Position numbers and translations under genes: made by a program. Below, in pieces: positions 37,160 through 41,541 of a DNA stretch of 45,898 nt. The notes beneath the pieces were generated by a model that saw nothing but the letters and a program-made list of their open reading frames with translations, was not told the origin of the DNA and ran no database searches. The first letter of the stretch is position 1; every line of letters begins with the position of its first letter. This stretch comes from Alphaproteobacteria bacterium (lineage in GTDB: Bacteria; Pseudomonadota; Alphaproteobacteria; UBA9219; RGZA01): the NCBI GenBank assembly GCA_028278105.1, contig JANQEX010000064.1:1-45898 (forward strand), in the 5' to 3' direction.

Positions 37160-37182
37160 TGGCGCGAGTGACGGGACTTGAA
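37160..37182 (-). repeat. Partial tRNA-Asp 3' end, copy 1 (att-like)
   Basis: These 23 bp are identical to the 3' end of tRNA-Asp at 37565-37587 (encoded CCA, acceptor strand and part of the T arm), in the same orientation. The rest of the tRNA is absent. It is followed by a TTAGCGAGCGCAGC-type hairpin and a palindromic repeat. Confidence 0.85.
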
Positions 37183-37244
37183 GAGCTTTTCTTAGCGAGC
37201 GCAGCAAGCTTAGAAAAACCTTCACCCCGGCGGAAGCCGGGGTC

Positions 37245-37289
37245 CAAGGGCGGTTTTATTGTAAATGGCGCGAGTGACGGGACTTGAAC
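37245..37289 (-). repeat. Partial tRNA-Asp 3' end with terminator half, copy 2 (att-like)
   Basis: These 45 bp are identical to 37544-37588, covering half of the tRNA-Asp terminator palindrome plus the last 24 nt of the tRNA gene. The copy is followed by nearly the same hairpin and GC-rich palindrome as copy 1, so copies 1 and 2 are tandem units of about 100 bp. Confidence 0.87.
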
Positions 37290-37362
37290 TGAAGGGCTTT
37301 CGTTAGCGAGCGCAGCGAGCTTACGAAAATCTTCACCCCCGCGAAAGCGGGGGCCTAAATCA

Positions 37363-37380
37363 TGGCGCGAGTGACGGGAA
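37363..37380 (-). repeat. Partial tRNA-Asp 3' end, copy 3 (att-like)
   Basis: This is a shorter copy. TGGCGCGAGTGACGGGA (17 bp) matches the tRNA-Asp 3' end exactly, then diverges. It lies 97 bp from copy 2 and 202 bp from the intact tRNA. All three copies are downstream of the tRNA and in the same orientation. Confidence 0.8.
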
Positions 37381-37523
37381 TTGGCTTCGCGACGCTGAAG
37401 CGTCGCTCGCCCTGACTTCGCAATACTCTATTATTTTTGCGCGCGGCGTGCACACCCGCCGCGCGTAAGGAATTGCTCGTCATGAACCCGCTTCTTTCGC
37501 GGGTTCAAGTCTCTCAAACCCGG

Positions 37524-37566
37524 CATTTACAATAAAACCGCCACAAGGGCGGTTTTATTGTAAATG
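37524..37566 (-). terminator. Terminator palindrome abutting tRNA-Asp
   Basis: A perfect 19-bp inverted repeat (37524-37542 with 37548-37566, arms CATTTACAATAAAACCGCC and its complement) surrounds a 5-nt loop. Its right arm runs into the encoded CCA of tRNA-Asp. Read leftward, the GC-rich ACCGCC/GGCGGT core is followed by TTTATTG, as expected of an intrinsic terminator. Confidence 0.8.
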
Positions 37567-37641
37567 GCGCGAGTGACGGGACTTGAACCCGCGACCTCCT
37601 GCGTGACAGGCAGGCGCTCTAACCAACTGAGCTACACCCGC
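37565..37641 (-). tRNA. tRNA-Asp(GUC)
   Basis: This is a complete cloverleaf on the minus strand: acceptor GCGGGTG/CACTCGC (with one G-T pair), anticodon loop CTGTCAC giving GUC, T loop TTCAAGT, discriminator G and an encoded CCA. Its 3' end is duplicated downstream three times, and its terminator is a long perfect palindrome. Confidence 0.97.
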
Positions 37642-41391: not shown

Positions 41392-41412
41392 GGGCGATGA
41401 GGGGTTCGAACC
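41392..41412 (-). repeat. tRNA-Val-like 3' end fragment
   Basis: GGGCGATGA followed by GGGGTTCGAACC matches the acceptor/T-arm part of tRNA-Val (41577-41597) with 2 mismatches in 21, in the same orientation. It includes a canonical T-loop TTCGAA. The rest of a tRNA is missing. It may be a decayed attachment-site copy. Confidence 0.5.
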
Positions 41413-41541
41413 GGCATATTTTGAAGCGAAGCCAGAGGCGAGCGCGCAAAATAGCCGTCCCCGCGCAAGCGGATCCATACGCCTATAACATTGGCAAAAC
41501 AGGCATTAGCCCGCCTTCGCCCTTTCAGGGCTACGGCGCGG

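Follow-up and report, generated by a model that had tools for sequence, protein, structure and literature searches.

What left a series of partial tRNA-Asp genes behind an intact one, and are they the scars of repeated integration? We examined this locus in the window (the whole 45,898-nt stretch of alphaproteobacterial DNA analysed here; all features described in it are on the minus strand). The source of the copies is the intact tRNA-Asp (GTC) gene (37565–37641; ARAGORN and Rfam RF00005, 73.8 bits), which is followed immediately after its CCA by a terminator-like hairpin, recognised by its sequence (ACAATAAAACCGCC..GGCGGTTTTATTGT; 37524–37564). A sequence-only reading of the locus had placed three same-direction copies of the tRNA 3' end farther downstream, at 37160, 37266 and 37363, and had interpreted them as integration scars. 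The three copies are where that reading put them, all downstream of the gene and all in the tRNA orientation. They are not a product of chance, since none of 957 trials with shuffled tRNA 3' ends matched the downstream sequence at the strength of the copies.

Next to the terminator-like hairpin is unit B (37363–37523), composed of an inverted T-arm, the direct 5' strand of the T-stem, a multi-hairpin core set in the T-loop, and a tRNA 3' end. The inverted copy of the tRNA-Asp T-arm (GACTTGAACCCGCGA in tRNA orientation; 37497–37511) is a 15/15-nt inverted repeat, and only 1% of other tRNAs match it as well. The direct T-stem 5' strand with the start of the T-loop (GCGGGTTCATG; 37481–37491) forms the left edge of the T-loop insertion. 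Two large hairpins make up the core, which lies between this strand and copy 3 of the tRNA-Asp 3' end (CAATTCCCGTCACTCGCGCCA; 37363–37383; 21 nt with one mismatch, 17 contiguous). RNA folding predicts a single closed multi-branch structure for the whole unit (–75.5 kcal/mol, z = –5.7 versus shuffles).

Two further units follow, each with a two-hairpin element that we call A-type. Elements A2 (37290–37355) and A1 (37179–37244) score 90.8 and 89.7 bits with model R1, which was built from six tRNA-associated A-type copies, these two sequences among them. A2 adjoins copy 2 of the 3' end (37266–37289; 24/24 nt), and A1 adjoins copy 1 (37160–37182; 23/23 nt). The first half of the tRNA terminator is duplicated behind copy 2 (37245–37265; 21 identical nt, family D1), and together they make the 45-bp perfect repeat (37245–37289) to which one copy had been said to extend. 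Copies 1 and 2 had also been assigned to duplicated units of about 100 bp, and they do have in common a 78-nt two-hairpin stretch that is 79% identical. No clear inverted T-arm was found in the A1 and A2 units, unlike unit B. Three different units, the trapped half-terminator, and copy-number differences among relatives support the proposal of serial events with a component of local duplication. Elsewhere in the window, a scan for own-end copies detected a diverged partial copy of the tRNA-Val(TAC) 3' end (41392–41412), and inspection and folding placed an A-like two-hairpin element ahead of it (41412–41476). This tRNA-Val unit (41392–41476), the inverted T-arm at 37497–37511, the multi-branch fold of unit B and the units at other tRNAs described below extend the sequence-only reading.

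The genome that contains the window (G000; a 2.05-Mb draft in 119 contigs) has related units at other tRNA genes. With the array as query, the same sequence was recovered next to tRNA-Gly(CCC), tRNA-Glu(CTC) and tRNA-Phe, and a scan of 40 tRNA genes added tRNA-Met and tRNA-Val. At Gly, Glu, Met and Val, the hairpins are each joined to that tRNA's own 3' end; the 3'-end copy at tRNA-Phe is too degenerate to call. Several different tRNAs thus have hairpin units joined to their 3' ends in a fixed register relative to the T-loop. Subtypes A1 and A2 are both present at Asp and at Gly, each with its own fixed T-loop junction. A-type hairpins are common to Asp, Gly, Thr and Phe, and the core of unit B recurs at tRNA-Glu and tRNA-Met. 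The exact B-core pattern gave only three copies across the whole order, all in this genome; a looser pattern for a second form of B, run on 385 alphaproteobacterial genomes, gave three further matches, none of which is a tRNA-associated unit. Two other kinds of repeat adjoin tRNA genes in this genome. Several of these genes are followed directly after the CCA by simple TTCAGAAATCAGAGGTCAGAAATCAG-type repeats, and just downstream of tRNA-Arg(acg) on contig C104 lie regular repeats (GTTGCGGTTTGACGCCGTTTTCTAATCAGCTATAAT) with unique spacers of about 30 nt, a probable CRISPR array.

The position of the copies is strictly polar. Among five genomes of the family (draft assemblies, with G001 incomplete and several counts small), 23 copies of tRNA 3' ends lie downstream of their gene and none upstream, and 14 copies of tRNA 5' ends lie upstream and none downstream, counts that include a few weak or att-like cases. 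The 3' copies start in the T-loop or T-stem, and the 5' copies mostly end in the D-loop. G002, from a different genus in the family, carries 3'-end copies behind Val, Lys-ttt (two perfect 75-bp units), Gly-tcc, Tyr (two units of 89 bp), Gly-gcc (likewise two of 89 bp) and Ser-cga. In G003 and G004, units lie behind Lys-ctt, Tyr, Lys-ttt and Gly-gcc. Unit length is about 75–200 bp, and the units of G002 and G003 have a common architecture and hardly any common sequence. In two other families of the order (G013, G010), 5'-end copies recur, and tRNA-Arg of G013 carries one B-like 3' unit. No partial 3' copy was found at 89 tRNAs of other, named Alphaproteobacteria (mostly Asp and Val near nuo), where whole-gene duplicates are present.

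The units also turn over. The nuoA/tRNA-Asp locus carries no units in G002, G003 or G004, so the array is most simply a gain in the lineage of the window. Copy number, which the sequence-only reading had proposed to compare between strains, differs between relatives and is 3 versus 0 at Asp, 2, 1 and 0 at Tyr, and 0, 2 and 0 at Lys-ctt. That reading had named two findings that would speak against integration, the same array in all relatives without any element at the site, or a unit dispersed as an ordinary repeat. The relatives lack the array at this locus, so the first does not speak against integration; but the unit occurs at many tRNA genes, and its A-type hairpin belongs to a dispersed repeat.

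Most units other than the A-type carry an inverted T-arm of their own tRNA ahead of the direct copy, a match equalled by no more than 3% of other tRNAs. Upstream of tRNA-fMet and tRNA-Ser the arrangement is mirrored: these units run from the tRNA 5' end to the D-loop and continue with a hairpin, a stretch rich in A and an inverted D-arm. In the direction from copied fragment to intact gene, 3' and 5' units agree in their order, with the outer end first, then the hairpin, the inverted arm and a spacer, and the intact tRNA last. Pieces of trailer and terminator are duplicated together with the 3' end. G004 has a second trailer with an inverted arm and hairpin and without a following 3' copy, so this part can exist alone. 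Changes in the inner hairpins of related units are compensatory and, with the exception of one hairpin, break no pair (few sequences). Two upstream arrays are in tandem. In locus L030 on contig C92 of G000 (1556–1905), 87-bp repeats upstream of tRNA-fMet form four units including the gene itself; with the tRNA 5' end, a hairpin and the inverted D-arm, they mirror the arrangement at tRNA-Asp. Upstream of tRNA-Ser-cga in G002, six 5'-end copies form a 79-bp tandem array with an inverted D-arm (TCGACCACTC).

The 178-bp repeats at tyrT/tyrV of E. coli (rtT RNA, RttR, RF00391) resemble the units described here in lying behind a tRNA and in ending with the stretch from T-loop to CCA. In E. coli K-12 the repeat runs from an inverted T-arm through a direct AAGGTTCGA and a hairpin core to the tRNA-Tyr 3' end. 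The inverted T-arm at tyrT is 22 nt long, none of 180 other tRNAs matches it as well, and in the predicted RNA fold it closes on the tRNA 3' end. The window array likewise lies downstream of its gene, with units that end in that tRNA's 3' stretch from T-loop to CCA; in unit B, as in E. coli, the core is preceded by an inverted T-arm and a direct T-stem 5' strand, which were not seen in A1 or A2. The units here differ from rtT in occurring at other tRNAs, in core sequence, in the stacking of several unit types at one tRNA, and in having 5' mirror forms. The RF00391 covariance model scores 133–138 bits at four places in E. coli but has no match at the window locus up to E = 10 or at five related loci searched with Rfam up to E = 5, and Rfam at permissive thresholds found no family for the units. 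The array is therefore built like rtT and is not a member of RF00391 by the model. Searches of an open-access library for rtT or tRNA 3'-end repeats yielded nothing directly on point, and to our knowledge the tyrT/rtT repeats of E. coli have so far been an isolated oddity. We also considered integron attC sites, whose core is GTTRRRY; the T-loop motif GTTCRA does not fit, and the idea was dropped.

The explanation that we favour, and hold to be reasonably probable, is that the window array is an rtT-type tRNA repeat array that arose by serial hairpin-associated fold-back duplication. The array would consist of three successive palindromic units, each with the tRNA-Asp 3' end from T-loop to CCA and each probably of local origin. 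Replication entering the tRNA gene from outside would stall or fold back at the first arm hairpin that it meets, which would be the T-arm from the 3' side and the D-arm from the 5' side. A template switch at this point could produce the inverted arm copy and the hairpin, and restart outside the gene would then regenerate the intact tRNA and leave the outer fragment behind. Later units may have formed, or been amplified, by tandem duplication. Observed are the anatomy, the strict polarity, the recurrence at many tRNAs, the turnover between relatives, the correspondence with E. coli rtT architecture and the lack of a recognisable integrase in the window; the template switch, the restart and the sequence of events are inferred from the anatomy. 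Template switching has been documented as a process that generates and maintains RNA hairpins (PMC8794818); such hairpins resemble the units in being inverted copies of nearby sequence with compensatory multi-base changes in their stems, and the units differ from them by the duplication of tRNA ends and the tandem arrangement. The middle hairpins, which are not derived from the tRNA, and the A1 and A2 units, with no clear inverted T-arm, weigh against this account. The B core is common to Asp, Glu and Met and the A-type hairpins to Asp, Gly, Thr and Phe; as purely local template switching moves no sequence between loci, the account also requires some exchange or mobility.

Mobility is the essence of an alternative in which the units are non-autonomous mobile palindromes. 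A small hairpin element would insert, by means of a transposase, at short TTCA/TGA-like targets (the T-loop TTCAA of tRNAs and the stop codons of protein genes), and insertion or repair would duplicate the tRNA end. Model R1 finds 28 places in G000 at E ≤ 0.01, with strong matches at Asp, Gly, Thr, Phe (the four that supplied training sequences), Lys and three protein loci. Palindromes of the A-type at the stop codons of protein genes number three in G000, two in G004 and three in G001. Seven of these eight strong non-tRNA copies start exactly at the stop codon and one lies 3 nt off, and on the far side their outer stem largely repeats the gene end in inverted form. These copies link the arrays to a wider behaviour of gene-end palindromes in the lineage, and it is mainly this position at gene ends that keeps the mobile-palindrome account under consideration; A-type elements at seven places in the tRNA flanks of G000, and others elsewhere, and the B core at three tRNA loci also favour it. 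A-type hairpins are, like REP-like and ERIC-like repeats, short imperfect palindromes dispersed outside genes. They differ from these in that many lie beside tRNA 3' ends and in their outer stems, which form no fixed terminus but copy, in inverted form, the gene end flanking each locus. The Y1/RAYT transposase (PF01797) has no match in G000, G002 or G003 and two in G004. The array matched no phage or plasmid record, and the B core and the tRNA-Asp core matched no viral contig; the likeness of G002 and G003 units in architecture and hardly in sequence also weighs against a mobile element, and we regard this account as unlikely. Two viral contigs match an A-hairpin pattern.

We give still less credence to the possibility that the units are functional structured RNAs, co-transcribed with the tRNA and selected, as rtT-like decoys of the tRNA or as trailer RNAs. 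The stability of the unit B fold relative to shuffles, the covariation of inner hairpins in related units, and the annotation of E. coli rtT as an RNA speak for it. A terminator-like hairpin, however, separates tRNA-Asp from the array, the arrays turn over quickly and are absent at the same tRNA in relatives, and template switching also preserves hairpin pairing (PMC8794818).

Integrative elements that target tRNA genes can leave partial tRNA genes as attL/attR remnants (PMC9897764). In the window array, as in such remnants, partial direct copies of a tRNA 3' end accompany the intact gene; the array differs from them in having no element or local integrase and in consisting of short palindromic units with inverted arms that are common to different tRNAs. 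No integrase was recognised in the window, as the sequence-only reading had stated, and neither an integrase nor element remnants were found between or beside the copies; the PF00589 matches of the genome sit on contigs C4 and C56, and among its tyrosine recombinases only XerC and XerD match well. One divergent tyrosine integrase gene (locus L030 on contig C92, 43–1362, minus strand) lies directly downstream of tRNA-fMet and probably marks an integrative element, which looks like an ordinary tRNA-targeted one. Integrase-like frames were seen by inspection within a few hundred bases downstream of Gly-gcc in G001 and of Gly-tcc and Ser-cga in G003, probably also ordinary tRNA-targeted elements. 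The 3' copy of tRNA-Ser-cga in G002, which starts in the anticodon arm and has no inverted T-arm, looks like a real att remnant in this family, in contrast to the other copies. We know of no integrase origin for the E. coli rtT repeats, which have the same architecture. Serial site-specific integration of phages or islands is very improbable, even though the copies run from T-loop to CCA as att cores often do, relatives have integrase genes and integrase-like frames beside some of their tRNAs, and G002 has the att-like tRNA-Ser copy. An att core needs no inverted T-arm and would be specific to one tRNA with flanks unrelated between tRNAs, whereas here the same hairpins sit at Asp, Gly, Thr and Phe, and the B core at Asp, Glu and Met, in fixed register and in short units. 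Mirror-image 5' arrays, the recombinases of the genome (XerC and XerD, and the divergent integrase at another tRNA) and the lack of a phage or plasmid match to the array, or of a viral-contig match to its cores, also count against integration.

Fold-back duplication at tRNA arms remains our preferred reading. With similar units at about ten other tRNAs in relatives and at tyrT of E. coli, the array looks like a recurring sprouting of palindromes from tRNA genes and not like a viral footprint. The rtT repeats of E. coli and the alphaproteobacterial arrays may, we suggest tentatively, belong to a general and unrecognised class of tRNA-arm palindromes, driven by a tRNA-gene-specific replication error or by a minimal mobile hairpin. 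Palindromes of this class would insert or form at the T-arm (downstream) or the D-arm (upstream) of any tRNA, with an inverted arm and regeneration of the intact tRNA. Not every partial tRNA copy, then, is to be taken as an integration scar. Now that the rtT architecture is seen on about ten tRNA species of a lineage far from E. coli, together with a 5' mirror form and strict polarity, the origin of these repeats becomes testable through close relatives.
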